64,000 bases of DNA from Clostridiales bacterium (GTDB lineage Bacteria > Bacillota > Clostridia > Peptostreptococcales > Acidaminobacteraceae). The position numbers and the translations under genes are program-made. The stretch is from NCBI GenBank assembly GCA_016342415.1, contig JAEIOD010000002.1:248001-312000 (forward strand), in the 5' to 3' direction. Shown here piece by piece: positions 8,295-36,965 of this stretch; positions within the stretch are counted from its first letter, which is position 1, and every line of letters starts with the position of its first letter. The notes below the pieces were generated by a model that did no database searches, had not been told where the DNA came from, and was given only the letters and a program-made list of their open reading frames with translations.

Positions 8295-8309
8295 CTATTC
8301 CCACTCAAT
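8295..8309 (-). other. att-like core (guaA 3'-end copy)
   Basis: CTATTCCCACTCAAT reads ATT GAG TGG GAA TAG on the minus strand (I-E-W-E-stop). It is identical over 15 bp to the copy at 23049-23063 and forms the left boundary of the integrase-bearing unit. Confidence 0.75.
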
Positions 8310-8405: not shown

Positions 8406-8425
8406 ATTAGTATCGATTTAGTATC
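8406..8425. repeat. Arm-like direct repeat, left copy
   Basis: ATTAGTATCGATTTAGTATC occurs here, just past the subtilase stop, and identically at 22969-22988 in the same orientation. It contains an internal repeat of TTAGTATC at an 11-bp period. It is a candidate integrase arm-binding site. Confidence 0.65.
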
Positions 8426-8427
8426 AC

Positions 8428-10785
8428 TTAAATATGTTGTTCAACTTCACTACGTAGCTGTATGTTATTATGCCAGAACTGAAACTCATCTAGCTTCTGA
8501 GTGACTTTATCATAAACATCAACCTGTTCTTCTGGATCTTTAATTGTAATAATCAAACAGAAATCTTGACTCGCTATTCCTTCCTCACGTTCGACTTTAT
8601 CTTCGATAAATTCTCTATACAAACCCTCAAGTTTTAGATACCACTTTCGATCTGCACCTAACAACTTCACACGATTTGTCTCCGTCATATCTCCCAAGTT
8701 AGCTGTATATTTTTTTACAGGATAAAACTTATTATGGAATTTGATTTTCATTCTTTCTTCTAGTGCAAATTGACTTTTATCAGCATCCATTAATCTCTTG
8801 CTATAATTATCTGTATTTAATAAGTTCTTAGACGTTTTTGGTGCTCTTCCAACTGGGTTCAGTATAATATTCTTACTCGTATCTCTTTCCACTTTTCCAC
8901 CATAAGTACCTAGAGACACATCTATATTAGACTGACAATATTCCGCTTGTTGTGAAGGTTCTAACAATGGATTATAAACTAGGGTCGCCGTTATTTGACC
9001 TTTAAAATAACCATTCTCAATCAAATCTTCAGGCATTGGAAAATCCATTATATCAATGAACTCACCTTTTACCATAGTATCTCGCAAAATTAGAGTTACT
9101 TCAGAAGGATCATTATATAAGATATTTTCAACATCTTTCGGCTTCCCAAAACCCATTTGGTTAATACGTTCTTTTTCAGGGATAACTAATTCGCTTGAAT
9201 ATCTAGATGAGTGTATCATTAAAGCTTTAATCAGTAAAGGATCAAATTCTTCATTCATTTCATGATACAATCCTCCTGCAAGTGCTGTAACCCGAGGTGT
9301 TGAAAAACTTGTACCAACCGCAGACTTAACATTGCCATCTGCTCCATATGATTTAACACCATTTGCAACCATCTCTCCAACTGTATTTTTACCAGCATTC
9401 CCACCATAGTGAACAACCTCTGGCTTTATAATATATGATGGACCTCTCCCAACTCTACTAAAAGGTGATGGATTTTCCTTCACAGCATAATCATGACTAT
9501 TTTGTTTATGTGCTATCGATCCAACTACAATAGATCTAACTGAATCTGCACCTTCATATAATCTACCTTTCGGTAAGTTTTTTACAAAATTCTTGCAATT
9601 TCCTGCCGATTTGCATATTAATACATTGTAGGTGTCCTGTAAATCATCAAGCGCTATACCTAAATCAGAAAAGCAATGATCGTTAATTTCCAATCCCCAA
9701 CTTATTGATAAGTTCCAGATTTTCACTTCTTCATAGTGTCTACTTACCGCTTCTCTAATGTTATGGATAAGTTCAGCTTCACTCTGATTTTCAATTTTTA
9801 AGTTTGGAACAATATTTGCATCCAACAACTTGAATTTTGGAGATTTAACCCAATTCTCACCTTCTAGTTCGTCACCATATTGTACAATCCCTGCAACAAA
9901 AGTTCCATGTGACTTATCTCTTAGATGGTCAGGATACGGTGAGTACTCCTCATTATGTAACCACGGTGATAAATGTGGTATTCTCGAAATACCTGAATCC
10001 AGTACACCGATCATTGTATAATCTTCTTCACCACTTGGCTCTGCAATAGCAACTGCCTCATCATCTTCAAAGAAGTCTAAGCTAACAGTAAAATATGGCA
10101 TTGGTTCAAATGAGAAAATCGCTCTTGAAATATCATCATCTATAATTCCATTTAACACATCAAGTTCTGTTGATTGTATATGATAAACATCATAATTTGA
10201 AGCATAATGCTCCTTCGAATATTCTATATTGTGTTGTCTCAAATATATTTCTAAATGTCTTTGGATTGCAGTGTTGAATTCGTAATTTTGATAGTCAACA
10301 AGTTTTAGCTTATAACTTTTTGCATCCTCTTCAAAATCTACAGAAGGATGAAATGTTTGTATTCCATCAACTGCAGATATTGCATGCTTATACTTTTCAG
10401 TGCTGTTTACTCTAGATTCAATTTCGTCTAAATCTGCAATATTATTGATGTTGATTAGTAATTCATCGTCATTCCTTATACCTACAACAGAGTTATTTCC
10501 ACTAGCTTGGAACAACTCTTTTATCTTATTTCGATGAGTCTTTGCATGAGCCTTATTAGCTAACTTTGCTGACATCATAAATGGAACAAACGAATCCTCA
10601 GACGCATTATCATTCACATACTCTTTGAACCCTTCAATTGATTCAATAAGACTATCCCTACGTTCATATAATTCTTCACCACTCATAACGAATTGCGGTA
10701 GACTACTGCTACCACCACCTTCAGTTCTCATTTCATCTACTTTTCTTTTTCCAAAGAACTTAATTGGTAATTTCTCGTTTGGCAT
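8428..10785 (-). CDS. Cytoplasmic subtilisin-like serine protease (S8 family) paired with an AAA+ ATPase
   Basis: The protein has 785 residues. The peptidase S8 triad is visible: Asp263 in MIGVLDSGIS, His293 in KSHGTFVAGI, Ser493 in GTSFSTPRVTALAGG, with oxyanion Asn396 in CKSAGNCKNF. About 255 residues precede the catalytic domain and ~230 follow it, both unrecognised. There is no signal peptide, so the enzyme should act inside the cell. The start follows GAGGAGG with a good spacing. The gene begins 19 bp after the AAA+ gene and is surely in one operon with it. Such subtilase/AAA+ pairs recur in variable regions and may form a regulated protease; a role in defence is a hypothesis here, not shown by sequence. 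Confidence 0.85.
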   Translation of the reverse strand: MPNEKLPIKFFGKRKVDEMRTEGGGSSSLPQFVMSGEELYERRDSLIESIEGFKEYVNDNASEDSFVPFMMSAKLANKAHAKTHRNKIKELFQASGNNSVVGIRNDDELLININNIADLDEIESRVNSTEKYKHAISAVDGIQTFHPSVDFEEDAKSYKLKLVDYQNYEFNTAIQRHLEIYLRQHNIEYSKEHYASNYDVYHIQSTELDVLNGIIDDDISRAIFSFEPMPYFTVSLDFFEDDEAVAIAEPSGEEDYTMIGVLDSGISRIPHLSPWLHNEEYSPYPDHLRDKSHGTFVAGIVQYGDELEGENWVKSPKFKLLDANIVPNLKIENQSEAELIHNIREAVSRHYEEVKIWNLSISWGLEINDHCFSDLGIALDDLQDTYNVLICKSAGNCKNFVKNLPKGRLYEGADSVRSIVVGSIAHKQNSHDYAVKENPSPFSRVGRGPSYIIKPEVVHYGGNAGKNTVGEMVANGVKSYGADGNVKSAVGTSFSTPRVTALAGGLYHEMNEEFDPLLIKALMIHSSRYSSELVIPEKERINQMGFGKPKDVENILYNDPSEVTLILRDTMVKGEFIDIMDFPMPEDLIENGYFKGQITATLVYNPLLEPSQQAEYCQSNIDVSLGTYGGKVERDTSKNIILNPVGRAPKTSKNLLNTDNYSKRLMDADKSQFALEERMKIKFHNKFYPVKKYTANLGDMTETNRVKLLGADRKWYLKLEGLYREFIEDKVEREEGIASQDFCLIITIKDPEEQVDVYDKVTQKLDEFQFWHNNIQLRSEVEQHI

Positions 10786-10804
10786 ATTGATCCTCCTCTC
10801 TAAT

Positions 10805-11902
10805 CTAAACAGAAACTATTTTTGACACCTCACGAATTTTTCTCAAAGATATATTTAAGTTTTCACTAATCTCCCTCTGAGTAACTCCATGATTTTGCAT
10901 AAATTTAATAAGATCACCTTCATCACTAATTGTGTGATGAATAAACAAATATACTTCTTTCAAAACTTCCCAATGATATACTTTTTCATTACTATAAAGT
11001 ATACTTTTACGAATACTATTTGTAATTATCGTATTAACATTTGAATGACTTAAACCTTTCATAGAATCACAAACCAAGCTCAGTTTCTTGTCATTTTTGC
11101 AAAAATTATTATCTACACCTGCAAGTAACATTTCGATTAACACTTCAACTTCAGACACTTTGGGTAGATCCAACATAATAGTCCGAGTAAACCTTCTCCA
11201 AATTGCTGGATCTAAAAGTTTGTGATGATTTGTCGCTGCTATCATAATAACATCAGGACCTAAAGAATCTATATTTTGTATTAAGCTATTCACAACTCTT
11301 TTTAATTCTCCAAGTTCATGCTTGTCATCACGCATTTTTGCAACTACATCAAATTCATCTAGAAATAGTATACATTCACGGTTTTTTGCATAGTCAAATA
11401 CTTTACGAATATTCTTAGCTGTACTTCCTAATAATGAAGAAACGAGCGAATCTAATCTAACAGTTACTAATGGTAAACCCGTTCTATTAGATATTAATCT
11501 TGCCAAAGAAGTCTTTCCACAACCAGGGGGACCATAAAAAAGAATAGACGAATTCGAGTATACTCCTCTTTTCAATAACATATCTCTCTTACTATACTCT
11601 TTTATAAGCGCCTCAACTTCATCAAGAAGATAATGATTCATAATTAAATGTTGTTCATTTTCTTCAGGGTAGGATATATCAACCATTGCCATTCTGCTAT
11701 CTCTATCAACTGGAGTTGTAGCAAATTCATCCAGAGAGGTTAACCTCCCCTTCTTCTTATCCAAAATATCATATATTCTATCAGAAAGTTTTACTTCGTC
11801 ATCTTTCTTTAAATTTCCAGCTAACACTTGAGCGTAGTTATAAACTTTTTGCTTATCACCACTAATGCCACCTTCAATAATTTTAATCAGTTCTGTAAAC
11901 AT
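10805..11902 (-). CDS. AAA+ ATPase, partner of the downstream subtilase
   Basis: The protein has 365 residues from the chosen start. It has Walker A GPPGCGKT (about 124-131), Walker B ILFLDEFD (about 178-185), sensor-type IMIAATNHH and arginine finger region DPAIWRRFTRTI, the layout of classical AAA proteins. The C-terminus carries a small helix-turn-helix-like segment (VTQREISENLNISLRKIREVSK). I chose the ATG at 11900-11902, because GGAGGTG lies 7 bp upstream and inside the first five codons of the longer frame. AAA+ proteins remodel or feed substrates to partners; here the partner should be the protease encoded 19 bp downstream. This is the first gene of a two-gene operon. Confidence 0.85.
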   Translation of the reverse strand: MFTELIKIIEGGISGDKQKVYNYAQVLAGNLKKDDEVKLSDRIYDILDKKKGRLTSLDEFATTPVDRDSRMAMVDISYPEENEQHLIMNHYLLDEVEALIKEYSKRDMLLKRGVYSNSSILFYGPPGCGKTSLARLISNRTGLPLVTVRLDSLVSSLLGSTAKNIRKVFDYAKNRECILFLDEFDVVAKMRDDKHELGELKRVVNSLIQNIDSLGPDVIMIAATNHHKLLDPAIWRRFTRTIMLDLPKVSEVEVLIEMLLAGVDNNFCKNDKKLSLVCDSMKGLSHSNVNTIITNSIRKSILYSNEKVYHWEVLKEVYLFIHHTISDEGDLIKFMQNHGVTQREISENLNISLRKIREVSKIVSV

Positions 11903-12350
11903 TACATGCACCTCCATCTACACTATATATCAACTCGTTACAATTATCAATGTATATGTTACATTCTAACCATTTTCGTTACCATTTAAACATATTACGT
12001 TATATAGATACCGATAATCGTTCGTCGAACACTTCCTTTTTAAATATAAACTAGAGTATATATCTACAATATTTCTAACACAACGACACTCTGAATCCCT
12101 TGCAATTACAACACAACTCATTCACAAGAGATTCAAGCATCATCATGATTTATACCAATTCTGCAAACGTGGTACAGTGTAGCATGAACTTGTCTATGCC
12201 GAAGGCAGTTGTATACTTATCTCTGAGTAGCTTTCGATTTTGAGTACTAATAAACCTTCAGCTAAAACTGAGTTTATTCATGACATAGAAGCAACATCAA
12301 CATCCGCTAAACTTACACCAATGGTAGATGGTGTACATATAGGTAAAACA
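11903..12350. other. 450-bp stretch without a convincing gene
   Basis: It contains the promoter region of the AAA+/subtilase operon and a 7-bp inverted repeat, TACACCA/TGGTGTA (about 12312-12333), downstream of the HIRAN gene. A short plus-strand frame beginning at 12240 overlaps the HIRAN gene and has no ribosome-binding site, so I do not count it. Confidence 0.4.
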
Positions 12351-12824
12351 TCATCTGTGTATAGTAGAGATAACATATGTCAAATTAAGGCCAAGATTAC
12401 CCCTAGAATATTCTTGTCCTGTTACATGCGAATGTAGAATATGAACAACTCCACCTACTTTAATAAGCTGATTAGCAACTTCGGCAATGCTCTTTGATAA
12501 ATACCCCAACTTTAGATTATAAGTCTGTTCTCCAACAAATGCATTGGCAACAACAGCTATTGCATTAGGATCATAAGGATTAGAAGGTTCTCTTACAGCT
12601 TCTATTTTATATTCGTATGATTCGAGGCACAGCAATTCTTTTAGTGTCTTTTGATGATAAGAGATGCCTCTAACCTTTGTATGCTTTCGATATACTTTAC
12701 TACGCATTATTGCCCATGAAAGGCATAAGGCTTCTGAGAATGACTTCACATCTGATTCTCGGTAAAGCTTATGTGCATATTTCATGATGAAGCTCAGCTG
12801 CATATTGAATTGATTACGATTCAT
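12351..12824 (-). CDS. HIRAN-domain protein
   Basis: The protein has 157 residues. Residues ~50-145 match the HIRAN fold: VRGISYHQKTL, then YEYKIEAVREPSNPYDPNAIAVV and LGYLSKSIAEVANQLI. The EPxNPYDPNAI motif is the family's best marker. HIRAN domains bind DNA ends or damaged DNA and occur alone or fused to helicases and nucleases. The stand-alone form is common on plasmids and integrated elements. It lies just downstream of radC and the short recombinase on the same strand, suggesting a DNA-processing cassette. The ATG at 12822-12824 is preceded by AAAGGAAGGTAGTT. Confidence 0.8.
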   Translation of the reverse strand: MNRNQFNMQLSFIMKYAHKLYRESDVKSFSEALCLSWAIMRSKVYRKHTKVRGISYHQKTLKELLCLESYEYKIEAVREPSNPYDPNAIAVVANAFVGEQTYNLKLGYLSKSIAEVANQLIKVGGVVHILHSHVTGQEYSRGNLGLNLTYVISTIHR

Positions 12825-12845
12825 AACTACCTTCCTTTCTATTCA

Positions 12846-12890
12846 AAAACGACAAAAGCCCTCATTAACGTTATTACGTCAACAAAGGCT
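12846..12890 (-). terminator. Possible terminator after radC
   Basis: On the minus strand, AGCC...GGCT arms enclose a TTGACG/CGTTAA stem and are followed by a T-rich tail (TTTTGTCGTTTTT). The stem has bulges, so strength is uncertain. Confidence 0.4.
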
Positions 12891-13503
12891 ACAACAATTC
12901 ATTCTCTTTAAAGCTATAATAAGTATCACCAATTATGATATGATCGAGTACTTTTATTCCTATTAGTTTGCCAGCGTCAACAAGTCTTTTAGTAATACTT
13001 TCATCTTCTCTTGATGGTTTAACATCCATACTGGGGTGATTGTGGACACATATGATATTTGCTATTCCACCATGTCTAAGTACATATCCAAAAACTTCAC
13101 GAGGATGGACTATAGATGCATTCAACGAACCTTTAGAAACCATAAAAGTATCTACAACAACATTCTTTGTATCCAACAACAATATGTGAAACTCTTCATG
13201 CTTTAAGTAACCAATTACCGGTTTCATCATCTTATATACTTCATTAGGAGAGCTTATCTTTATCCTTTGAACATTGTAGTTGTTAATGACCAATCGTTTG
13301 ATTAACTCCTGTATAATTTGAATCTTATCTGCTGTTTTTGGACCTATACCAGCAACAGACATTAACTCACTCTGGGTTGTATTGTAAATGATATCTGGTA
13401 ATGATTTCTCATCAAACAAAGAATCTATTGTCGTTGCATTTGATTCTCTAACTAATAACCTCATTAATTCCTTATCTGATAGTGAAGTTGTATTTTGATA
13501 CAT
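12889..13503 (-). CDS. radC: RadC-family JAB1/MPN domain protein
   Basis: The product has 204 residues. An N-terminal helix-hairpin-helix segment (ELMSVAGIGPKTADKIQIIQ) precedes the JAMM metal-binding motif HNHPSMDVKPSREDESIT, typical of RadC/YeeS proteins; the upstream conserved Glu should lie in HEEFHILLLD. I chose the ATG at 13501-13503, which has GAAGGAGG 7 bp upstream; a longer frame starting 45 bp earlier lacks such a site. Despite the historical name, a repair function for RadC is not established. Copies on mobile elements are frequent. It sits between the HIRAN gene and a short recombinase gene, all on the minus strand. Confidence 0.85.
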   Translation of the reverse strand: MYQNTTSLSDKELMRLLVRESNATTIDSLFDEKSLPDIIYNTTQSELMSVAGIGPKTADKIQIIQELIKRLVINNYNVQRIKISSPNEVYKMMKPVIGYLKHEEFHILLLDTKNVVVDTFMVSKGSLNASIVHPREVFGYVLRHGGIANIICVHNHPSMDVKPSREDESITKRLVDAGKLIGIKVLDHIIIGDTYYSFKENELL

Positions 13504-13576
13504 AACTGTTCCTCCTTCATTATTATCAGCAGCGTCCATTTGCCACATGATTTACTTATTGCACATTTTCATTTAC

Positions 13577-14122
13577 TTACAATGTAAATTCCTCCATAGC
13601 ATCATCCATCATATCTTGGGTTATACCAATGTACTTTAATGTCACACTAGGACTTGAATGATTGAATAACTTCTGTAGAAGCGCTATATCTTTAGTTTTC
13701 TGATAGAAGTGATAACCAAAAGTCTTCCTCAGCGTATGCGTGCCTATCTCCGAAAGCCCAACAGAAGCAGCAACAGAATTCAGTATCCTGTATGCCTGCA
13801 CTCGACTTATTGGTTTACCTGTATGATGACGTGATGTGAATAGATGCTCTTCAACGTCCATCCAACTAGTATATGTTTTAAACTCATGCTGAAGATTACT
13901 GTTCACAAGAAATCTCTTACGCTTACCAGTCTTAGTTTCAACAACTGTTATATGACTGACGTTAGCAACATCACATACTCTAAGTTTCAATATGTCTGAT
14001 ATTCTTAAACCAGTATTGATTCCAACAACGAATAAGAGGTAGTCTCTTAAACTTCTTTTGTGTAACTCAACTTTCATAACTTCAATCATATGAAGCTCTC
14101 TAATTGGCTGTACATAGTTCAT
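13577..14122 (-). CDS. Short tyrosine recombinase (XerC/D-like catalytic domain only)
   Basis: The product has 181 residues, about the catalytic domain alone. Active-site residues are present: Arg in NTGLRISDIL, Lys in TKTGKRKRFL, HTLRKTFG (His-x-x-Arg), His in LFNHSSPSVTLKYIG and the Tyr of that same motif. The N-terminal core-binding (SAM-like) domain of full integrases is missing. The chosen ATG (14120-14122) has AAAGGAGG 5 bp upstream. Such short recombinases are typical of plasmids and integrated elements and may resolve multimers. It is distinct from the element's integrase at 21897-22973. Confidence 0.85.
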   Translation of the reverse strand: MNYVQPIRELHMIEVMKVELHKRSLRDYLLFVVGINTGLRISDILKLRVCDVANVSHITVVETKTGKRKRFLVNSNLQHEFKTYTSWMDVEEHLFTSRHHTGKPISRVQAYRILNSVAASVGLSEIGTHTLRKTFGYHFYQKTKDIALLQKLFNHSSPSVTLKYIGITQDMMDDAMEEFTL

Positions 14123-14284
14123 GTTTGCCTCCTTTATTTTCATCTGTTATGTTACATGGAAAGTAAAAGCCACAACCGATATGTTACACTCAGTCATGGC
14201 TCGATTTGCAAGTGGGACTATTGCTTGATTACGGGATTAATGACAAGTAACAAAATGTGTATTGTGTTACATTCATCACTCAGT

Positions 14285-14781
14285 CTACTTATCAAACAAC
14301 TTAAACAATCCCTTCAATGAATCACCACCTTTATCAATGACAGTTTCACCTGATGTTCTTACAGCACGCGAAGTATACGATGTAACATCACGGATGCCTT
14401 TAAGACCCACTTTAATGATTGTTGCACTTGTATCAACAACGCATACACCTAGAGATTCAATAAACTCCCCTGATTGTTCTACAGCAGATGCACCTACATC
14501 AACAGCAGACTTGCTCGTCTTAATTAAACACCATCAATTACTTTCTCCTGACCATAGTTACTAACCTTTTCAAGTACACTTTTGGATCCAACTTGACTAG
14601 TATTCTCGGATATTTTATCAAGCTGTTGTTGATACATCTTCAACAAGGTTTCGTCACCAGTTGTATCTAGTCCTAACTTTGTAGAGAGTTCTACCCTAGC
14701 CTTTAAAGCTTCTAGTTTTGAAATCAAATCTTCTGCTTTCTTGATTCTTTTTACTGCCTTCTGTTCTTTAAAACTTTTCAT
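14285..14781 (-). pseudogene. Frameshifted small coiled-coil protein gene
   Basis: A good start (AGGAGGATACGAAA-ATG) opens an 85-codon frame rich in charged, helical sequence (KEQKAVKRIKKAEDLISKLEALKAR). It ends at a TAA at 14524-14526. Directly after, in the -1 frame, an equally well-formed sequence continues for ~80 codons (TSKSAVDVGASAVEQSGEF ... SLKGLFKLFDK) to a TAG at 14285-14287 without a start codon of its own. The simplest reading is one ~165-residue gene broken by a single indel. No classical slippery heptamer sits at the junction, so programmed frameshifting is unlikely. The function was not recognised. Confidence 0.6.
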
Positions 14782-14900
14782 TTTCGTATCCTCCTAATTG
14801 TTGTGTAGCTTCCTAATTAACTCAATACCAATCAATTATTAACATCCATAATTACCACATCCTTTCAACGATCTAGTTCATTCACCTTACTTTTAGACGT

Positions 14901-14967
14901 AAAAAAGAGCAGTAGTCATAACAACTCTGCTCACATAGGAGGGTCGGGCATCAAACGCCAACTCTCC
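14901..14967 (-). terminator. Terminator preceded by a GC-rich hairpin (possible small RNA 3' end)
   Basis: Minus strand: a GAGCAG/CTGCTC stem (14907-14912 with 14927-14932) is followed by six Ts (14901-14906), a standard terminator. Just upstream of it in transcription order is a second, stronger hairpin, GGAGAGTTGGC with GCCCGACCCTCC (14938-14967), loop about 7 nt. The two lie ~120 bp downstream of the broken gene at 15087-15757, so they may end its transcript or form a short non-coding RNA. Confidence 0.5.
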
Positions 14968-15086
14968 ATCATATTAATATACTTAGTACTGGTAGGATTT
15001 ATATCCCATTTTACCGTTCTATAGGTTTTCTGATACTCTAATCCCTATATATATCTGTGTATTTTTATGCTCTATATAAGTAATCC

Positions 15087-15757
15087 CTAGTTATCTGAAG
15101 ATGCATCTGCCTTTAATTTACTAAGACCTGATTCATCAATACTTACTACCGATATCTTTAAAGCACTGTCAACAATAAACAACTTATCAATGCAATTCAG
15201 TATAATCTTATCAAAGCTCCTTTTGTCATCTGCAAACCATTCAGTTGATCTTTCTTTGATATCATCAACATTAAGTATTGAAGTGTGAATGAAAACATAT
15301 AACCAATTGGCATTAAATACTTCATATAAACTATTCAGTTTCACAGTTTTTTCACGAATACTTATTGCAGCCATATCTAAGTACCTACTTGTATTAGTCA
15401 TCCCATCGTACTCTCTGTATTATGTAAAACCATCACGGACTTTTATTCTGCCTTCAATTCTTTTACCAAATCGCTTTTCTGCTTCCTCTTTAATTATTGC
15501 TCCATCAAGTCCTTTACCAAAATATTCATTGATGATGAACCTTTGCTCTCCGTACTTAGAAGTAATTGCTCTCCGTACTTAGAAGTAATTGCTTCAGTTA
15601 CTTCTATTCCAACACCTAAGTCTCGTGACTGAAAATCAGGTTTTTCATAACTCTTTTCGTCTGTTAACATCACCTTAAGATTACTATCATAGAATCTAAC
15701 TAAACTTAGAATTGCATACTTTTCAAAGAAATCTTTCGAGTACATAATCAACCTCAC
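15087..15757 (-). pseudogene. Broken gene for a ~220-residue protein with a PD-(D/E)XK-like motif
   Basis: Two frames (15494-15757 and 15087-15401) are pieces of one gene. The first begins MRLIMYSKDFFEKYAIL and contains EKPDFQSRDLGVGIEVTEAI, a spacing reminiscent of PD-(D/E)XK nuclease cores. A perfect 23-bp tandem duplication at 15545-15590 then throws it out of frame. Removing one unit restores RFIINEYFGKGLDGAII...RIEGRIKVRDGFT, which reaches an in-frame TAA at 15420-15422. Seven codons later the same frame continues as the second piece (SRYLDMAAISIREKTVKLNSLYEVF ... FDKIILNCIDKLFIVD). So there are two lesions, a duplication and a nonsense codon. The nuclease reading is tentative. Confidence 0.65.
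15545..15590. repeat. Perfect 23-bp tandem duplication
   Basis: Two identical adjacent 23-bp units (15545-15567 and 15568-15590), beginning GCTCTCCGTACTTAGAAG, lie inside a coding sequence. Because 23 is not a multiple of three, it shifts the frame. Confidence 0.9.
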
Positions 15758-15971
15758 TACTTTTAATTATACATATGGAATCCCTGAAAGCTCCATCTTC
15801 ATTCCATAGATTTTAAGTCACTCACGATATTTTCCTTAATCATTCATAATATAGCTCATTCAGTACCAAAAGTCTTTAAATGGTTCATATAGAATACTTT
15901 CTGTAGGAGCATACCAACTTTTCTACCGATTTCACTTCAACATATTTGACTCTATATCAAATAAGATTATG

Positions 15972-18062
15972 CTATTTTAATAATTGCAGTATTCCTTGAG
16001 GCAATTGATTACTCTGAGCCATCATTGCATTTACAGCTTCCTCAAGTATTTTAAACTTGGATAATGACATCATCTCCTTAGCCATATCAACATCAGCAAT
16101 ACGGCTCTCAGCAGCTGAAAGTTGTTCTGATGCATTGTTAACATTTCTTATAACATGCTCTAGTGCATTTTGTTGTGCACCAAACTTTGATCTCTGCGAG
16201 CTTATTCTGTTTAGTACTTGATCTGTAAGTGTAAGTGATACACCTGCCATTTCAATTGGATTAACTCTAGGCATATCATCAACATATCCCAGCGCTTCAG
16301 GTCTCATATCATCAATAGATATAGTCATTGTTTGCCCTGTATTTGCACCAATTTGTAAGGTTATACCACCTGATTGACTGGTTTCATCCTGAACATTTGT
16401 AGTCTTAACATTAACCTTACTTATCCATACATCAATACCACCATTTATAGTGGGAGCATCTCCATCAAGTGACTGAGTTTCGAATGCTATAATTAAATCA
16501 CCATCGCTGTTAACATATGAACTCCTAGAAACTTCTTGTCCACTACCTCCAAATGAAGTTATGTTTTGAATAACTCCACTTGTATCTACTTTCACCAATG
16601 CTAAGTCTGTATTACCATTATTAGCTGGAAAATCTCCATCATTAGAATCAGAATCTAAAAGAAGTACATAACCATCATCTACTTCTTTTATACCACCTAA
16701 AGGAACATCCCCTTGACTGCCTCCAATTAATACATCCCATTCTTTGTTACCATCAACATCAGTTTTTACAAGCCATACATCTTGATTCCCATTTGGTACA
16801 TCACTTACATCTCCATCAGTAGAAGTTGTATCCACTGTAAAGATATATCCTCCATCAGAAGTATTGAGTAATTGGGTATTATTTAGATTAATAGGTTCAG
16901 AATTAGAGCCCCCTAAGTTCTTCTGCCAAACCGTATTTAAACCAATATCTAACTTCCAGAGTAGAACATCTGATCCACCATTAACACCTGTTAGATCTTG
17001 CCCCAAAACCGTATAGCTACCATCAACATTCTTCACTACATCATTTATTTCTAAGCTTGTATCACCATTCCAAAGATTAAGTCCCAATGCTCCATTAGAA
17101 TCTATTTCAAGAATACTAGGGGAATCCCAAAATGGGGCACTTGATTTAGCACCAACAATCAAGTAGTTCCCTGGTGTACTTTCTATTATTTTATTGCCCC
17201 AGTCACCATCAGCACCACCATATGTTTCTTCCCATACAATATTACCAGAGTTATCAATCTTAACAGCCCATACATCACTATCACCATTATTAGACGATAC
17301 ATCTTGATTACTTGAATATGTACCACCTACAAGAATATAACCATCTGAAACAGCTATAGAAGAGTTAAATGTATCATGACCACTACCGCCATAATTCTTC
17401 GTCCATACTTTATTACCATCACTATCAAGCTTAGTAACGAAAGCATCATTAGATCCATATATAGTTGGAATATCTCCATCAGCTGATGAAGTTGTTCCAA
17501 ATGCAATTGTACCTCCATCATTTGATGCAATTACACCATTTACATTATCTCCATTTGAACCACCAATATTAGTGCGCCATATAGCTTCACCAAAGTTAAG
17601 ATTCACAGGGCTACTTGAAGTACTTTCTGAAGAAACTCCCTTAGCACTTCCATCTAAGAGCTTTCTAGTATTAAACTCAGTTGTTGAGGCAATATTATGC
17701 ATTTCTGACTTTAATGAATCTAACTCAGACTGTATTTTGTCTCTATCATCATCCATGAGTGTTCCATTAGCTCCTTGAACACATAACTCTCGTATTCTTT
17801 GGGTTATCTCTCCCATTTCTCCCAATGCACCTTCAGCGGTCTGTATAAGTGATATACCATCTTGTGCATTACGACTAGCTTGATTAAGACCACGGATTTG
17901 AGCTCTCATCTTCTGACTTATTGCCAATCCAGCAGCATCATCAGCAGCTTTATTTATACGTAAACCAGACGATAGTTTTTCTATCGCCTTAGAAGAATTC
18001 TTTCTATTAATCTTTTCTCTATTTAAAACATTCAACGACTGAATATTATTAGCGATTCGCAT
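15972..18062 (-). CDS. Flagellin with a ~400-residue seven-repeat, propeller-like insertion
   Basis: The product has 696 residues. Residues 1-~150 are a canonical flagellin D0/D1 N-terminus (MRIANNIQSLNVLN, KLSSGLRINKAADDAAGLAIS, NAQDGISLIQTAEGALGE). The last ~130 are the matching C-terminus (QNALEHVIRNVNNASEQLSAAESRI ... SNQLPQGILQLL). Between them, ~162-557 hold seven degenerate ~56-residue repeats of the form W-x4-GGS-x-D ... DGG-Y-x-x-x-G-T-x-S-x-DGD ... D-x-W-L-V-K-x-D-x-x-G-N, as expected for a seven-bladed beta-propeller replacing the surface-exposed D2/D3 region. The ATG at 18060-18062 has GAGGTGG upstream; a longer frame adds nine codons. A consensus sigma-D promoter precedes it. Flagellin is exported by the flagellar type III system. 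The gene lies inside a mobile unit with no other flagellar genes. Confidence 0.9.
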   Translation of the reverse strand: MRIANNIQSLNVLNREKINRKNSSKAIEKLSSGLRINKAADDAAGLAISQKMRAQIRGLNQASRNAQDGISLIQTAEGALGEMGEITQRIRELCVQGANGTLMDDDRDKIQSELDSLKSEMHNIASTTEFNTRKLLDGSAKGVSSESTSSSPVNLNFGEAIWRTNIGGSNGDNVNGVIASNDGGTIAFGTTSSADGDIPTIYGSNDAFVTKLDSDGNKVWTKNYGGSGHDTFNSSIAVSDGYILVGGTYSSNQDVSSNNGDSDVWAVKIDNSGNIVWEETYGGADGDWGNKIIESTPGNYLIVGAKSSAPFWDSPSILEIDSNGALGLNLWNGDTSLEINDVVKNVDGSYTVLGQDLTGVNGGSDVLLWKLDIGLNTVWQKNLGGSNSEPINLNNTQLLNTSDGGYIFTVDTTSTDGDVSDVPNGNQDVWLVKTDVDGNKEWDVLIGGSQGDVPLGGIKEVDDGYVLLLDSDSNDGDFPANNGNTDLALVKVDTSGVIQNITSFGGSGQEVSRSSYVNSDGDLIIAFETQSLDGDAPTINGGIDVWISKVNVKTTNVQDETSQSGGITLQIGANTGQTMTISIDDMRPEALGYVDDMPRVNPIEMAGVSLTLTDQVLNRISSQRSKFGAQQNALEHVIRNVNNASEQLSAAESRIADVDMAKEMMSLSKFKILEEAVNAMMAQSNQLPQGILQLLK
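16392..17579 (-). repeat. Seven in-frame ~170-bp repeats encoding the propeller-like domain of flagellin
   Basis: At the protein level successive units open WRTNIGGSNGD, WTKNYGGSGHD, WEETYGGADGD, NLWNGDTSLE, WQKNLGGSNSE, WDVLIGGSQGD and NITSFGGSGQE. Five of them contain Asp-Gly-Asp or a similar turn plus a DxW/DxA-x-VK strand. Units 3 and 4 are the most divergent. The DNA is not highly repetitive, so the repeats are old. Confidence 0.75.
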
Positions 18063-18093
18063 ATGCCACCACCTCATCACTCTTACCACTTAT

Positions 18094-18120
18094 ATATCGG
18101 CAAGTTGATTAACTTTTTTA
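18094..18120 (-). promoter_or_regulatory. Sigma-D (sigma-28) flagellar promoter of the flagellin gene
   Basis: On the minus strand TAAA (18117-18120) and GCCGATAT (18094-18101) are separated by exactly 15 bp, a full match to the TAAA-N15-GCCGATAT consensus of FliA/SigD. It lies ~32 bp upstream of the start codon, so the gene should be expressed with the host's late flagellar regulon. Confidence 0.85.
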
Positions 18121-18800
18121 ACAATTATTTGAATTTATATTGTATATCATAGTAATAATCGTGTTTATATATTAATGAATCACAATCATTTATTTGTTTA
18201 AATTCTCCATTAAGCGAAAAAGACCAACAACAGCTGACATTCCAACTGCCGAAGGCCTTTCTTTAATATCTGGCTACACCCAGCACCAATGTTTAAGAGT
18301 GGGTGTAACAAATGGTGTAGTAGCCCTATTAACTCTATCAACACCTGTTAACTCAAGTAGACAACAGCTAGGTTATTTAACAACTCCAGAGTACTGCATC
18401 AACACCATTTAACTCCTTGATTAGATTTAACGTATAAACAATAATAGCTCCTCACAAAGTTTTACCTTGCAAGAAACTATAAATGACTACTTCATTTTTA
18501 AACTGTGTATTAAGCATTACAATGGAAACTAATTTGCTTACCATTACTTATGATAAACGAATCACAAACTCAAGACATATACCTTATATAAAGTAACATT
18601 CATCTACACAAGCATAATCTTATCAAATCCAATTATAATAGCAATTCTAATCACCAAACACCGACTAGAGAGGCAGAAAAAGTAATAGAACAGAAAATCG
18701 ACTTATGTTCAATTTTGAATTAAACTGCAATTATTCAATAGTGTTTATCAAAAATAAGCACCAATTACTATATAAATATTATATATATAAAGATTCATGC
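18121..18800. other. 680-bp stretch without a convincing gene; contains a possible structured RNA
   Basis: The sequence is AT-rich except at ~18230-18370. There, nested complementary segments GGCTAC (18272-18277)/GTAGCC (18320-18325) and CACCA (18284-18288)/TGGTG (18313-18317) could fold, and a small GCCGAAGGC hairpin lies at ~18248-18256. A 72-codon plus-strand frame at 18194-18412 has no ribosome-binding site and overlaps these structures. The region separates the flagellin and helicase genes; a replication origin of the element is possible but not shown. Confidence 0.35.
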
Positions 18801-20798
18801 TTACTTTTCTAGTTTCACTGGTTTTATAATCTTTTGACCCTCAGCAACGATGCCATTTCTACTTATAAAATCAACAACATTTGCATTTCTAAGAATCCTA
18901 GTTAAGTCGGATGAATGAGATAAACCTAACCTATGCCTAATATCAGACTTCTTATGAGTCCCAGAATCTAACTCTTGCAACAGCTGAATAAACCTTGTAG
19001 CCGCTGATGTAGTTCGTCGAGTTAAATTGTCGTAATCTTTTCTTTGTTTGTGGAATTCAATATCAAAGTCATATAGTAGTTGAGCACCTGGTAACGCTTC
19101 TACAACTTTATTAATAACAGCATCATTAGAATTCATTATGTACACATCTGAAGGGTGCGTACCATCTCTATTAATCCTCAATATTGCTTGAACAAGATCA
19201 TCCGCTATTTGTCTCACTTTATAATCTTCGAGATCATCGAACACATACTTAAGGCTTTTATGCACTTTTGTCATCTTAAGTGGTATATCATCTCTTAAAT
19301 CAAACTGAGTCGGCTCGTCATACAAATTTACAATTGTCAGACTTATAGCATCCAATTGATCATTAGACATCTTAGTTGCTGGAAACAGATTAGTTTTTAA
19401 TACAGAGTTTTGCTTAAACGATGGTAAATCTGCAACTAAAGGAACCCTATTGTAAAGATCCATCATCGATTTTGAAAATGCAGCTGTCGCCTCTTCACTA
19501 ATTTGACCTGTAATCAAAACTCGATTGTAATTAGTTGTTATCCTGACTTTCATATCTTTGTTAATATAATACTGATAATTCAAAAGTGTTGCTTCACCAT
19601 TGATATTAGGAGTTCCAAATATAAATAGCTTATTGCAATCCTCATATGCATTGGTGCCGACGAGTTTATGAACTTTATCAAAGTTAATGCTATTTGCAAT
19701 AGTTAGATCAGTAGCTGCAGCAAGTTTATCTAGTTTGTTCATATATGAAAGCACTAAAACATCATCCCTGATAGAAATATTTTCCTTAACATAGTTCATT
19801 GCTGTCTTTTCAAAATCCTTGAGGTTGTTAATTGATTGTTTTGAGCTACTTCTATTACACACATGAATTTTAAACTGACTGTAATTCCTAGCCTTTGGTG
19901 TTCTAATTATGTTATAGAACTCTGATTCATATTGTTTGCTTATCGATGCAGATGCGTCAATCATTAAATTGTGTTCAGCAATGCTTGGAATCACTCTTGA
20001 ATCAAATGTATATACTTTATTAATACCAGTCCTATGATCCTTATTAATGAATATCCTCTTGTTGTAGAACTCTTTAATTTGTAAAATCCTATCTTTTAGT
20101 GTCGATTTGCTTAGTTTAATTGATTCATCTACGCTCAGTTCCCTCTTATACTCTTCAGTATATGTTGCTTCAACTACATTAATAATATCAGACAAACTAT
20201 CATCAAGACCTATTGGCTCATCTAAATCCAACAATGACGGTTTTCCAATATCATTGGCAAGGGCATCACGTATCACACCTGTAAGTGTCCTGAACGTCAT
20301 ATCGATAGGCTTTGGCATCAGTAACTCTAAATCATTTAAATTTCTATTCGTAAGATAAATAGGTTCAACATAATTGACAGTTTCATCTATGATATGTAGC
20401 CTACCATCCCCTAGTACCTTTAATTGGTGAGGATTCTTACCAAAATCTTTAAATCGTTTGCTTGTAATCACTACTACAGGATACTGTTCAGCCAGTGATT
20501 TCATCATCTTTGCGTTTTTGCTATCAACCCCTACTGCTATACTCTTTCCAGCAGCACGATTAAGTGCATCCACTATAAATTCACCTCTTGTCTTTTCTCT
20601 TGTAAATGGTGTTACTATCAACACTTTATTATCTGGATTAATAGCAATAAAATGGGGAACAGCATCAATAATCGCAGTTGTTTTTCCAACACCTGGCTCA
20701 GCATCTATCACATCAAATTTACCATCAACATTGTTGTTAAACATAACTTTATGCCGTATTCCACTTTGTATCTGCTGTCTCTTCTTATTATCAAACAT
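18801..20798 (-). CDS. Plasmid/phage-type superfamily 2-like helicase with C-terminal HTH-like segment
   Basis: The product has 665 residues. Near the N-terminus is Walker A in VIDAEPGVGKTTAIIDAVP, followed by motif Ia-like KVLIVTPFTREK and a Walker B HIIDETVN (DE-box type). Later segments such as DVLVLSYMN, then LFIFGTPNINGEATLLNYQYY and VRQIADDLVQAILRINRDGTHPSDVYI, resemble the second RecA-like domain (motifs V/VI, QAxxRxxR-like). The last ~80 residues are helical with SDIRHRLGLSHSSDLTRILRNA, a possible winged helix. It may serve replication of the excised element. The start has AGGAGGAATAGG upstream. The exact subfamily was not recognised. Confidence 0.7.
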   Translation of the reverse strand: MFDNKKRQQIQSGIRHKVMFNNNVDGKFDVIDAEPGVGKTTAIIDAVPHFIAINPDNKVLIVTPFTREKTRGEFIVDALNRAAGKSIAVGVDSKNAKMMKSLAEQYPVVVITSKRFKDFGKNPHQLKVLGDGRLHIIDETVNYVEPIYLTNRNLNDLELLMPKPIDMTFRTLTGVIRDALANDIGKPSLLDLDEPIGLDDSLSDIINVVEATYTEEYKRELSVDESIKLSKSTLKDRILQIKEFYNKRIFINKDHRTGINKVYTFDSRVIPSIAEHNLMIDASASISKQYESEFYNIIRTPKARNYSQFKIHVCNRSSSKQSINNLKDFEKTAMNYVKENISIRDDVLVLSYMNKLDKLAAATDLTIANSINFDKVHKLVGTNAYEDCNKLFIFGTPNINGEATLLNYQYYINKDMKVRITTNYNRVLITGQISEEATAAFSKSMMDLYNRVPLVADLPSFKQNSVLKTNLFPATKMSNDQLDAISLTIVNLYDEPTQFDLRDDIPLKMTKVHKSLKYVFDDLEDYKVRQIADDLVQAILRINRDGTHPSDVYIMNSNDAVINKVVEALPGAQLLYDFDIEFHKQRKDYDNLTRRTTSAATRFIQLLQELDSGTHKKSDIRHRLGLSHSSDLTRILRNANVVDFISRNGIVAEGQKIIKPVKLEK

Positions 20799-20894
20799 CC
20801 TATTCCTCCTAAATAGGAATACTTACTCCTATATTTATTAAATATTATAACTCAAGACTATATAGTACTTCTTCTAGTATACAAGTCTAGATAA

Positions 20895-21080
20895 CTACAT
20901 CATCACTTTTGATTCAAAATATCTACGACTAATCTTACCTGATACTGTATAATATCCATCTTTATTTAATTCTTTATTTAAATCACGTATAATCTGATAC
21001 GCTTTAGACATTGAAATATCCAGTGTATTTGCTACATCATTTGCAGTTAGAAATCTGCTTTTCGTTTCTTTTACATCCAT
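20895..21080 (-). CDS. Small helix-turn-helix protein (excisionase-like)
   Basis: The 61-residue product is almost all one DNA-binding domain: FLTANDVANTLDISMSKAYQIIRDLNKEL, then GYYTVSGKISRRYFESK, as in small excisionase/ICE regulators of Firmicutes (HTH_17-like). The start has GGTAGGTGATATT upstream. It is transcribed away from the XRE repressor gene, with a shared 156-bp control region, an arrangement typical of the switch region of integrative elements. A role as recombination directionality factor or as regulator of the helicase gene is inferred from this position. Confidence 0.7.
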   Translation of the reverse strand: MDVKETKSRFLTANDVANTLDISMSKAYQIIRDLNKELNKDGYYTVSGKISRRYFESKVMM

Positions 21081-21176
21081 AATATCACCTACCTTTCACA
21101 TGCAATTTCATCATTTCTTAATCATATGATAAATCAAGACGAGACAGAATGCAATATGTTTTTGCTTAACCATAGT

Positions 21177-21213
21177 ATTGACTTTGTGGTTTTCTACTGT
21201 TAAACTATAGTTA
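21177..21213 (+). promoter_or_regulatory. Promoter and candidate operator in the divergent switch region
   Basis: Plus strand TTGACT, a 17-bp spacer and TAAACT precede the XRE gene. The palindrome AACTATAGTT overlaps the -10 end and is a candidate repressor operator. AAGGAGGTG follows as the ribosome-binding site of the XRE gene. Confidence 0.5.
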
Positions 21214-21236
21214 GATTAAACGTAAGGAGGTGTAAA

Positions 21237-21737
21237 ATGGAAATTGAAAAACAGATAGGACAGTACTTACATGAACAAAGAACGATGAGACATCATACAC
21301 AAGCTATGGTGGCAAAGGCCTTAGGAATCAACCAGTCTACATATGCTAACTATGAATCTGGGAGTCGATTATTCCCTGCTAAGTATGTTTCACGACTATC
21401 AACAAGACTTAATTTTGATATAGACAGGATCGTCGAGCTACATCCGAAAATTGATCCAAACTTTTTTCTAGTTGATTATGATGAGGAGCCAATTGTAATT
21501 CAGGGCAAAGGAATCGCTGTTGCAGTTCCTATCGATTCACAACTAAGGGTTAATCCTGTCATTTCATACATGGCAACGGAAGGATACAATATCTCAATTC
21601 AAGAGTCTGTCGATGAGTATGTTGTTATCAAAACAGATTCATACGAGATGTCGCTTAGTCAAAAGGAATTACAAAAGCTTAATAAGAATGTAACTGATTT
21701 CATAGAGTTTGAACTCTACAAGAAAAGAAACCAATAA
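21237..21737 (+). CDS. XRE-family (Cro/CI-like) transcriptional repressor
   Basis: The product has 166 residues. The HTH_3 domain covers residues ~7-65 (LHEQRTMRHHTQAMVAKALGI, then NQSTYANYESGSRLFPAKYVSRLSTRL). The C-terminal ~100 residues are unrecognised; they lack an obvious LexA-type Ser/Lys protease or an ImmA-like HExxH motif. The start follows AAGGAGGTGTAAA. It is divergent from the small HTH gene and upstream of the integrase on the same strand, as expected for the repressor that keeps the element quiescent. Confidence 0.85.
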   Translation: MEIEKQIGQYLHEQRTMRHHTQAMVAKALGINQSTYANYESGSRLFPAKYVSRLSTRLNFDIDRIVELHPKIDPNFFLVDYDEEPIVIQGKGIAVAVPIDSQLRVNPVISYMATEGYNISIQESVDEYVVIKTDSYEMSLSQKELQKLNKNVTDFIEFELYKKRNQ

Positions 21738-21741
21738 GAAA

Positions 21742-21775
21742 ACAACCCCAGTGCTGGTAACACCGAGGTTGTATG
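21742..21775. terminator. Hairpin after the XRE gene
   Basis: ACAACC...GGTTGT arms with an inner GTG/CAC pair form a strong stem just after the XRE stop. A short T-run follows only on the minus strand, so terminator activity is uncertain. Confidence 0.4.
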
Positions 21776-21896
21776 CCACAGAATTATATGGATCAAGTCC
21801 AATATAATAGCTATGTCGCAATACTATTATAACAACAAAGGACAACATCTTCAATTCTTGGTTTTCTTATTATACATTTAGAAAGGAAGTGAAGAT

Positions 21897-22973
21897 ATGC
21901 CTGCATACAACGACAAAATAACAGGAAAATGGTACGCCAAATTTTACTATAAAGATTGGCAGGGTAATAGTAAGCAAAAGATGAAGAAAGGTTTTAAATA
22001 CAAACGCGAAGCACAGCAGTTCGAAAGAGAATTTCTAGATAAAGCACACGCTGATTGTACAATGACCTTTCAAAGTCTCTATGATCTTTATATGGAAGAC
22101 GCCAAAGTTAAACGTAAACCAACAACTTATGAAAACAAAAGAGTGCTCATCGAACTAAAGATTCTACCTTATTTTAAGGATCAGCAAATCAACAATATTA
22201 CACCCGCACAGGTCAGACAATGGCAAAATAAGTTGATATCACAGAACTACAAGCCAACTTACCTTAAGACCATTCACAATCAGCTTACTGCTATGTTTAA
22301 CTATGCAGTAAAGTTTTATAAGCTGCAAGAGAACCCTGCGAAAATCTGTGGAAGTATGGGAGAAAAGAACGCTGACTCAATGGATATTTGGACTGTAGAC
22401 GAGTTCAATACATTTATAGAAGCATTTAACGACAAACCATTAACGAGAGTTGCATTTGAACTTCTCTTCTACTCAGGAATGCGTTCAGGCGAACTGCTAG
22501 CACTAACATATAATGACTTTGATTTTGAGAATAAGAAGGTAAGCATCAATAAGAACTTTGCAATAGTTAAGAGAGAACACTTGATACTACCACCGAAAAC
22601 ACCTAAAAGTAAACGAGTTGTAAATTTACCTGATTTTCTTGTTGAAGATATCGAATGGTTAATTAAACAATTCTACGATTTTAATGATTCTGATAGAATC
22701 TTTGATTTCACTAAATCTCATTTAAACACCCAGATGAAACGAGGTTCTAAGATTGCTGGCGTAAAGAAGATTAGAGTCCACGATATTCGCCACTCACATG
22801 CCTCCCTGTTAGTTGAACTTGGATTCTCTCCATTACTAATTGCTGAACGCTTGGGTCATGAGAAAGTACAGACAACCATGGAAACCTATTCACACCTTTA
22901 CCCAAACAAGCAAAACGAGGTAACAGCGAAGCTTCAGGAGCTGGTTGAGGAATCTTATAGGAACATGAATTAG
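21897..22973 (+). CDS. int: Tyrosine integrase of the guaA-linked element
   Basis: The product has 358 residues, normal for phage/ICE integrases. An arm-binding N-terminus (YNDKITGKWYAKFYYKDWQG ... GFKYKREAQQFE) is followed by a SAM-like core-binding domain (~60-150). The catalytic domain has Arg in SGMRSGELLALTY, HDIRHSHASLL (His-x-x-Arg), His in ERLGHEKVQTTMETYSHLY and the Tyr of that motif. The ribosome-binding site is AAAGGAAGTGAAGAT. The stop codon lies within the 20-bp arm-like repeat and the gene points at the right boundary core 75 bp away, the usual placement for an integrase next to its att site. Its likely target is the 3' end of guaA. Confidence 0.9.
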   Translation: MPAYNDKITGKWYAKFYYKDWQGNSKQKMKKGFKYKREAQQFEREFLDKAHADCTMTFQSLYDLYMEDAKVKRKPTTYENKRVLIELKILPYFKDQQINNITPAQVRQWQNKLISQNYKPTYLKTIHNQLTAMFNYAVKFYKLQENPAKICGSMGEKNADSMDIWTVDEFNTFIEAFNDKPLTRVAFELLFYSGMRSGELLALTYNDFDFENKKVSINKNFAIVKREHLILPPKTPKSKRVVNLPDFLVEDIEWLIKQFYDFNDSDRIFDFTKSHLNTQMKRGSKIAGVKKIRVHDIRHSHASLLVELGFSPLLIAERLGHEKVQTTMETYSHLYPNKQNEVTAKLQELVEESYRNMN

Positions 22974-22988
22974 TATCGATTTAGTATC
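22969..22988. repeat. Arm-like direct repeat, right copy
   Basis: ATTAGTATCGATTTAGTATC is identical to 8406-8425 and overlaps the integrase stop codon. The pair lies just inside the two boundary cores of the element. Confidence 0.65.
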
Positions 22989-23000
22989 GCAAGACATAAA

Positions 23001-23045
23001 GAAACCCTACGAACCTTGTATTATTAAGGTCTGTAGGGTTTTGTT
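23001..23045 (+). terminator. Rho-independent terminator of the integrase gene
   Basis: AAACCCTAC (23002-23010) pairs with GTAGGGTTT (23033-23041), with an inner ACCTT/AAGGT stem, followed by a T-rich tail. It lies between the arm-like repeat and the boundary core. Confidence 0.85.
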
Positions 23046-23048
23046 ATT

Positions 23049-23065
23049 CTATTCCCACTCAATTG
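23049..23065 (-). other. att-like core (guaA 3'-end copy)
   Basis: CTATTCCCACTCAATTG reads CA ATT GAG TGG GAA TAG on the minus strand (I-E-W-E-stop), the same C-terminus as GuaA. It forms the right boundary of the integrase-bearing unit and the left boundary of the unit next to guaA. Confidence 0.8.
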
Positions 23066-23098
23066 CTGGAATTTGACTCCTATTAGTTTGTAGTATTT

Positions 23099-23530: not shown

Positions 23531-23536
23531 AATGGT

Positions 23537-35429: not shown

Positions 35430-35446
35430 TTACTCCCACTCAATTG
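35430..35446 (-). other. att-like core at the end of guaA
   Basis: TTACTCCCACTCAATTG is the reverse complement of CA ATT GAG TGG GAG TAA, the last codons of guaA. The three distal copies encode the same residues but with GAA TAG. guaA 3' ends are known integration targets for genomic islands and integrative conjugative elements. Confidence 0.75.
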
Positions 35447-36965
35447 TACTTGGTGGCTTAGATGTAATGTCATATAATATTCTATTTACATTAGGTACTT
35501 CATTTACAATTCTAGAAGAAATCTTATCTAGTACTTCATAAGGCAGTCTTGCCCAATCTGAAGTCATACCATCAATTGATGTTACTGCTCTAATGCCAAT
35601 TGCATGTGTATGTGTTCTTTCATCACCCATAACACCAACAGTTTTTACATTAGGTAGTGCTGTAAAGTATTGCCATACATCTTTTTCTAGACCAGCATTC
35701 TTTATCTCTTCTCTTAATATTGCATCTGATTCTCTTACAAGGAATAATGCTTCTTCATTCACTTCACCCATAATTCGAATCGCAAGGCCTGGACCTGGGA
35801 AAGGTTGTCTCCAAATTAATTCTGGATGTATGCCTAACTCAAGACCTGTTTGTCTTACTTCGTCTTTAAATAAGTCTCTTAAAGGTTCACATAATTCAAA
35901 ATCTATATCATCTGGTAAACCACCAACATTATGATGCGATTTAATCACTTCAGCAGTATCAGTACCTGATTCAATGACATCTGGATAAATTGTACCTTGA
36001 ACTAAGAATTTAACACCTTCAAGTTTATTTGATTCTTCTTCAAATACTCTGATGAATTCTTCACCGATTATTTTTCTTTTTTTCTCTGGATCAGTTACAC
36101 CTTTAAGTCTTGCAAGGAATCTGTCTTTACAATTAACTCTCACCAAGTTCATGTTAAACTCTCTACCGAAAGTCTCTTCTACCTGATCACCTTCATCTTT
36201 TCTCATTAGACCATGGTCAACGAAAATAGCTGTTAAGTTCTCTCCAATTGCCTTTTGTACCAATATTGCGGCAACAGATGAATCAACACCACCAGAAAGA
36301 CCAATAATAGCTTTATTATCTCCGATTTGATCTTTAATTTTTTGTACCGATTCTTCAACAAAGTTTGCTGTTGTCCATTCGCCTGTACAACCACATACTT
36401 CATATAAGAAGTTATTAATTAAAGTTCTTCCAAAAGGAGTATGCTCTACTTCTGCATGGAACTGTACACCATAAAGATGTTTCTCTTTATTTCTCATAGC
36501 AGCAACCGGTGTTGAAGTTGTAGATGCTGTTATTTCAAAACCTTTCGGCGCCTTATCAATAAAGTCAAAATGACTCATCCAACATGTAGAACCCGTCTCT
36601 ACACCCTTAAATAACTGATTGTTATCTTTTATTTCAAGCTCAATTTTACCATACTCACGTTGATCAGCATTTCTTACTTCGCCACCTAACACATGTGCCA
36701 TTAGTTGTGCACCATAACAAATACCTAATACAGGAATACCCAACTCAAATACTTCTTTTTCAATACTCGGAGCACCTTCTTCATAAACTGAATTTGGTCC
36801 ACCCGTGAAAATAACACCCGTTGGCTTTTTTTCCTTTATAGCTTTAAGGGCATTTTTATAAGAATAAACTTCCGAATAAACTTTCGCTTCTCTTACACGT
36901 CTTGCAATTAATTGATTGTATTGTCCACCGAAGTCAACAACAATGATCATCTCTTTGTTCTCCAT
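35430..36965 (-). CDS. guaA: GMP synthase (glutamine-hydrolysing)
   Basis: The product has 511 residues, the standard length. It converts XMP to GMP with ATP and glutamine, in the cytoplasm. The class I glutamine amidotransferase domain (1-~195) has nucleophile Cys83 in [10 protein letters not shown] and the His/Glu pair in [10 protein letters not shown]. The ATP-pyrophosphatase domain has the PP-loop [12 protein letters not shown], and the dimerisation domain ends in the universal [17 protein letters not shown]. The gene lies 11 bp downstream of guaB in the same direction, so guaBA form one operon. The last codons double as the integration core of the downstream array but remain intact. Confidence 0.98.

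Follow-up and report, generated by a model that had tools for sequence, protein, structure and literature searches.

An apparent integrative element at the 3' end of guaA carries a flagellin of its own, the outer domain of which is predicted to be a seven-bladed beta-propeller. The element was identified in a 64-kb stretch of DNA, hereafter the window, and its features are listed in Table 1. We consider it probable that this cargo flagellin is expressed with the late flagellar genes, likely free of CsrA control, and mixed into the filament, where it would display the propeller as a binding head. The element could thereby give flagella a new surface, bearing a display domain of a predicted fold that is widely used for binding. 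It would also extend the recently proposed remodelling of host flagella by mobile elements to a case without TldR, in a host that appears from its gene content to be Gram-positive. Two testable points are raised: the presence of the element's own protein in the filament, and avoidance of FliW-CsrA as a means.

Table 1 Features of the flagellin element and its integration site (positions in the window)
Feature	Coordinates	Strand	Basis
Left guaA 3'-end motif, putative att core	8295..8309	+	exact copy
20-bp exact direct repeat, left	8406..8425	+	repeat search
IetS subtilase, defence	8428..10785	-	PADLOC, 1034 bits for IetS
IetA AAA ATPase, defence	10805..11917	-	PADLOC, 436 bits for IetA
HIRAN protein, common to G011 locus	12351..12824	-	domain scan, sequence comparison
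RadC-like protein, common to G011 locus	12889..13548	-	domain scan, sequence comparison
Mobile propeller flagellin	15972..18062	-	696 aa, intact frame; both flagellin end domains over cut-off
C-terminal D1/D0 part, residues 569-696	15975..16358	-	Flagellin_C; 86.7% identity to G011 sister
Seven-bladed propeller insert (predicted), about residues 157-552	16407..17594	-	model, fold match, repeats, blade HMM
N-terminal D0/D1 part, residues 1-141	17640..18062	-	Flagellin_N; 85.1% identity to G011 sister
Short leader, SD AGGTGG, without GGA (no CsrA-like site)	18063..18093	-	leader comparison
Sigma-D promoter, TAAA-N16-CCGATAT	18094..18120	-	single match in window
DEAD-like ATPase	18801..20798	-	Pfam DEAD below cut-off; PHROG of unknown function
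XRE-type regulator	21237..21737	+	domain and PHROG scans
Tyrosine integrase	21897..22973	+	domain and PHROG scans
20-bp exact direct repeat, right	22969..22988	+	repeat search; overlaps integrase stop
Right guaA 3'-end motif, putative att core	23049..23063	+	exact copy
guaA (GMP synthase), 3' end the apparent integration site	35430..36965	-	motif comparison

The flagellin and its predicted propeller insert

The flagellin gene starts with an ATG at 18062 and encodes a protein that begins MRIANNIQSLN. The feature had originally been drawn as 15972-18120, which takes in the whole gene but overruns it, since the start codon is at 18062 and the promoter begins at 18120. The D0/D1 ends were intact, as had been claimed, and both Pfam end domains scored far above their cut-offs. 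Flagellin_N matched residues 4-141 (E 2e-44, 151 bits, cut-off 26.6) and Flagellin_C matched residues 612-696 (E 9e-22, 78 bits, cut-off 23), in a numbering that includes one leading residue.

The original prediction placed seven repeats of about 56 residues between these ends. With units cut at the GG turn, seven repeats of 48-63 residues each were found within residues 166-552, starting at residues 166, 224, 281, 331, 383, 446 and 504. Pairwise identity among the repeats averaged 35% (22-44%), and the mean pairwise alignment score was 55, compared to 6 ± 1.9 in 300 shuffles. A one-blade HMM, built from 23 blades that all came from non-flagellin relatives, gave 7 matches in the window flagellin (E 7e-19 to 1.5e-3, the weakest being blades 3 and 4) and none in host FliC or the host flagellinolysin, the two host flagellins tested. 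The W-x4-GGS signature ascribed to the repeats was only partly upheld: it is exact ahead of repeats 1, 2, 5 and 6 (4/7), but reads GGA before repeat 3, lacks the W before repeat 7 and is gone entirely before repeat 4. An EAIW segment N-terminal of repeat 1 provides the W segment that repeat 7 is without, an arrangement that matches the usual circular closure of propellers.

Structure prediction, which had been proposed as a check, was run with AlphaFold2 on residues 140-585 together with six relatives, so that the insert model was built on no more than 7 sequences. The model was a propeller (pTM 0.77, mean pLDDT 73) with 28 strands, which by strand order form seven sets of four. The first strand, at model residues 21-26, completes the last blade (blade 7) and closes the circle. 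The full-length model was weak (pTM 0.49); long helices at both ends surround the strands, and blades 3-4 and the linkers were badly modelled. When the insert was compared with solved structures by Foldseek and VIA-align, the propeller of CylK came first (Z 42.8, rmsd 2.6, 372 aligned, 24% identity), followed by E. coli YncE, another propeller (Z 30). The 50 entries listed ranged over Z 27-43 with propellers at their head, and included Photorhabdus PLL lectins at Z about 27.

A search against HMM families, likewise proposed, succeeded in part. A profile of 12 relatives matched CylK by sequence at E 3e-44, but the insert matched no Pfam family over cut-off. Pfam holds no model for the family, and its members weakly match unrelated family names. 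The same profile gave weaker matches to entries under the names Bagel and cell surface protein, taken here to be designed propellers; the literature searched contained nothing relevant on the source of the Bagel designs. The insert is thus predicted to be a seven-bladed beta-propeller on the combined strength of its seven repeats, four strands in each and circular closure, as the repeat count had suggested.

An apparent integrative element at guaA and its sister locus

The flagellin element occupies 8295-23063 (14.8 kb). That the gene lies inside a mobile element was borne out by the integrase, the copies of the guaA motif, the 20-bp direct repeats and a different insert at the same site in a second genome of the genus (G002); to judge from these sequence features, the locus is an integrative element with a tyrosine recombinase. 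Exact copies of the 15-base guaA 3'-end motif, CTATTCCCACTCAAT, start at 8295 and 23049, against none in 20 shuffles; a copy with a single mismatch is at 6387, and guaA's own end at 35430 carries a slightly different one. The G002 insert after guaA measures 3.4 kb and has the 20-bp repeat of the window element near both ends, one copy with a mismatch. In G001, also of this genus, the 11.7 kb read near guaA contained no listed flagellin, and an AbiE region lies near guaA that is the same DNA as the AbiE unit of the window. In the window this AbiEi/AbiEii pair (PADLOC) forms a unit of its own, 6387-8309, with a copy of the guaA 3'-end motif on either side. A further unit, 23049-35430, encodes a MerR regulator and a giant SLH/aBig_2 surface protein of 3512 aa, and lies between a guaA-end copy and guaA. 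We read the AbiE unit, the flagellin element and, apparently, the SLH/MerR unit as a tandem integrative array at guaA. The assembly is listed with 9% contamination; by reading, the order of guaA and guaB is the same as in G002, which argues against contamination.

The element also encodes adjacent IetS and IetA, the arrangement that defines the IetAS defence pair. An integrase fragment of 188 aa lies at 13577-14143 inside the element and perhaps stems from an older insertion, and a stretch of about 23 bases is tandemly duplicated at 15544-15590, within a small frame beside the flagellin. Elsewhere in the window, an ordinary TPP riboswitch precedes a thiamine transporter gene (43267-43363).

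A sister flagellin of 822 aa was found in G011, which belongs to another genus of the same family (L109 2307-4775). It is followed by RadC, HIRAN, a protein without a Pfam match, an XRE regulator and a large serine recombinase, and the nearby recombinase suggests that this flagellin is mobile as well. The locus adjoins a ychF-like gene, named by reading. In G005, the left flank of the window element, together with a motif resembling the guaA end, is found downstream of a ychF-like gene (L053 9448-9579), the kind of gene that also adjoins the G011 locus.

Sequence identity between the window and G011 flagellins is high at both ends (Table 1) and 30.8% in the insert. The core of the window flagellin is 61.7% and 48.4% identical to host FliC. 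DNA similarity between the two loci is confined to three blocks: the N-terminal flagellin end (79%, in a block that takes in about 97 upstream bases), the C-terminal end (84%) and RadC/HIRAN (69%), the last two proteins being 49.5% and 58.6% identical, respectively. The core ends are under purifying selection (NG86; N end, dN 0.11, dS 1.37, dN/dS 0.08; C end, dN 0.08, dS 0.85, dN/dS 0.09-0.10). Among the core matches listed for the order sample, all others reached at most 66%, except the partial G026 (73%) and G043 (70%). In a core tree of 32 rows, which included the 25 of 28 loci (L114-L141) that satisfied the start filter, the window, G011 and G026 flagellins formed a clade apart from host FliC (96/89, bootstrap not fully settled). 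Because G712, G414 and the host flagellinolysin are long branches, we do not conclude that all propeller flagellins arose once (91/91).

An insert that is far more diverged than its core is what would be expected of a surface recognised by phages. The element might re-coat the filament so that flagellum-binding phages lose recognition, an extra defence beside IetAS and the neighbouring AbiE pair, and the presence of both defence systems fits such a role. We consider this explanation unlikely. We know of no flagellum-binding phage of this host, which counts against it. In the closest experimental case, more than 1,100 phages were screened and none was of this kind, and resistance was judged unlikely to be the main driver, according to the part of the report available (PMC13418256).

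Relatives of the insert

Relatives of the insert were found in 12 of 148 related genomes, its own included. Among the relatives listed from this set, most frames begin with a signal-like segment and only the window frame was flagged as a flagellin, G011 having been recognised by a separate search. Six non-flagellin relatives, L011 and L012 among them, had seven repeats each when scanned with the blade HMM, which was seeded from these six. The family also occurs in two Bacteroidota genomes, on 24 plasmid records, haloarchaeal ones included, and in a few viral contigs (two frames of L080, L082 on the same contig, L099 and L070). The viral members were found from a degenerate DGGY pattern that matched 47 stretches. 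IMG/VR contained no relative of the insert itself, nor of the L009 region, and a flagellin query against viral contigs returned five flagellins, all without the repeats by reading. Matches were obtained in 15 phage records, none covering 80% of the query; record H5 matched the insert alone at 30%, and H12 is annotated as a beta-propeller repeat protein. The insert thus appears, from these sequence matches, to have been borrowed from a common family whose members are mostly secreted.

The search of other flagellins for the same insert, also called for in the original prediction, yielded propeller-type inserts in four more flagellins within the phylum, those of G011, G712, G414 and G026. In overlapping genome samples, hits to the 12-row profile were obtained in 22 of 393 genomes from the order, in 44 of 398 from the phylum (E 1e-8 for both) and, at E 1e-10, in 20 of 398 from the class to which G414 belongs. 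Flagellin_N was sought in 84 repeat-bearing genomes (the own genome plus 21, 43 and 19), and shared a frame with the repeats in four of them: the own genome, G011 (822 aa), G712 (1497 aa) and G414 (635 aa). The 19 other repeat-bearing genomes of the class of G414 held no further fusion. The fifth case, G026, was recognised by reading; its insert falls outside the profile genome list and was matched by a direct scan at E 3e-16. Blade HMM hits, with those at E 0.01 or better in brackets, numbered 21 (20) in G712, 8 (6) in G414, 6 (2) in G011 and 7 (1) in G026. The G011 insert is thus weakly repeat-like by the blade HMM, and the longer profile finds it at E 3e-28; the G026 insert is weaker still. 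The G026 flagellin (L142 10184-12349) is of a diverged propeller type, belongs to the same clade and has a broken 5' end. The 21 hits in G712 (L110 7871-12364) are three times seven, which suggests that the head can be multiplied within one flagellin; by reading, this gene lies near other flagellar genes.

The insert might alternatively act through bulk, a large head merely thickening or stiffening the filament and altering swimming. Giant flagellins form thick filaments, according to the available part of PMC6248924, and the phage flagellin FliC_P raises motility via outer-domain contacts, as described in the portion of PMC13418256 at hand. The occurrence of the insert family in non-flagellin proteins, however, points to a function of its own, and we regard a mechanical role as somewhat less probable even than a phage-related one. 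Under the preferred explanation of a binding head, every copy of the flagellin would show a seven-bladed propeller of a widespread, mostly secreted family, most likely for adhesion or ligand capture.

Promoter, leader and known systems

The promoter had been described as a perfect sigma-D promoter, and the canonical pattern TAAA-N16-CCGATAT indeed has one match in the 64 kb, with 0.22 expected. A match to the sigma-D pattern also lies before the G011 sister gene. The exact pattern is absent from 19.9 kb around host fliC, and a weaker CCGATAA was found by eye upstream of that gene. With its own sigma-D promoter, the mobile flagellin would be transcribed together with the late flagellar genes of the host.

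A GGA is present in the last 20 nt of 27/27 other flagellin leaders compared to 0/2 leaders of mobile flagellins (window and G011), and 21 of the 27 carry a further hairpin-borne GGA upstream as well. The window, G011 and G414 leaders have neither a GGA near the ribosome site nor an upstream hairpin GGA. The 27 leaders, from 25 of 28 loci plus host FliC and the host flagellinolysin, are best core matches and not a random sample; L117, L127 and L140 were omitted for want of an identifiable start or of enough upstream sequence, and where a locus had two starts the last found was kept. The loss of GGA is suggestive only, since 10 of 24 ATG frames picked from the window are also without a GGA within 20 nt (14/24 have one), and the window and G011 leaders, being homologous, count as one event. 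The missing GGA could reflect chance or drift. In the host, fliC (L006) is immediately preceded by fliW and csrA. In C. difficile R20291, two such sites are predicted in the fliC leader and FliW antagonises CsrA, as reported in the part of PMC8523840 available. We infer that the mobile flagellin probably escapes the FliW-CsrA brake, its short leader being without the CsrA-like sites present in the leader of host fliC. A broader reading is more tentative, and we hold it to be possible but not favoured: RadC/HIRAN-linked mobile flagellins may cross genera on unrelated tyrosine- and serine-recombinase elements, with their ends fixed, their heads diversifying rapidly and their CsrA sites lost, thereby overriding host flagellin homeostasis and re-coating the filament with a changing binding head.

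The mobile flagellin might also be a silent passenger that is unexpressed or unassembled. It lies on a different contig from the flagellar cluster, and its G026 relative has a broken 5' end. Against this stand its intact frame, its canonical promoter, purifying selection on both ends and the recurrence of the RadC/HIRAN neighbourhood in a second genome, and we consider silence improbable. The cargo flagellin, with its D0/D1 ends retained, would instead leave the cell through the host export apparatus and join host FliC and the host flagellinolysin in the filament.

The statement that no propeller insertion had been described held in part. Among the matches listed in the literature searched, which left subscription journals mostly outside, there was no paper on a propeller flagellin. 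Sialidases are propellers, and propeller-class domains in flagellins are not wholly unprecedented. Sialidase (10) and vWFA (21) are among the 61 domains listed for flagellin hypervariable regions in the available part of Eckhard et al. 2017 (PMC5595980), the main text of which does not contain the word propeller.

In the TldR-FliC_P prophages of Enterobacter, a mobile element likewise supplies a flagellin whose main departure from that of the host is in the outer domain, and the RNA-guided TldR represses the host flagellin; the part of that report available calls the prophage flagellin the first known example (PMC13418256). Unlike FliC_P, the window flagellin is carried on a small, apparently integrative element at guaA, its outer domain is a predicted propeller, and no TldR-like gene was found in the frames scanned. 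No TnpB-like gene was detected among 12 element frames (9 scanned with Pfam, 9 with PHROGs and some with PADLOC), a set that left out two frames on the other strand (100 and 127 aa) and shorter ones. The element has no exact match of at least 13 nt to the 350 nt around the host fliC start, a threshold that shorter guides would fall below.

By sequence and fold, the insert belongs to the same repeat family as the C-terminal propeller of CylK, and by sequence to that of the W-GGS/DGG repeat proteins found in Bacteroidota, in related genomes and on haloarchaeal plasmids. Apart from G011, G712, G414 and G026, the relatives seen are not flagellins. CylK is an enzyme and has, in addition to its propeller, an N-terminal domain, whereas the window propeller is flanked only by flagellin ends. 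A head with CylK-like enzymatic activity, as the nearest solved fold and sequence might suggest, is therefore highly improbable, as the CylK active site lies between the N-terminal Ca2+ domain (Arg105) and the propeller (available part of PMC8916777) and this domain is absent from the window flagellin.

Flagellinolysins and other domain-bearing flagellins likewise hold a whole foreign domain in the hypervariable region between intact ends. Unlike flagellinolysins, the window flagellin has no metallopeptidase: the NCBIfam model NF033876 gave 48 bits against a cut-off of 205, with its best stretch C-terminal. The host carries a separate flagellinolysin (L006 13064-14821, 328 bits) and may thus have three kinds of flagellin.
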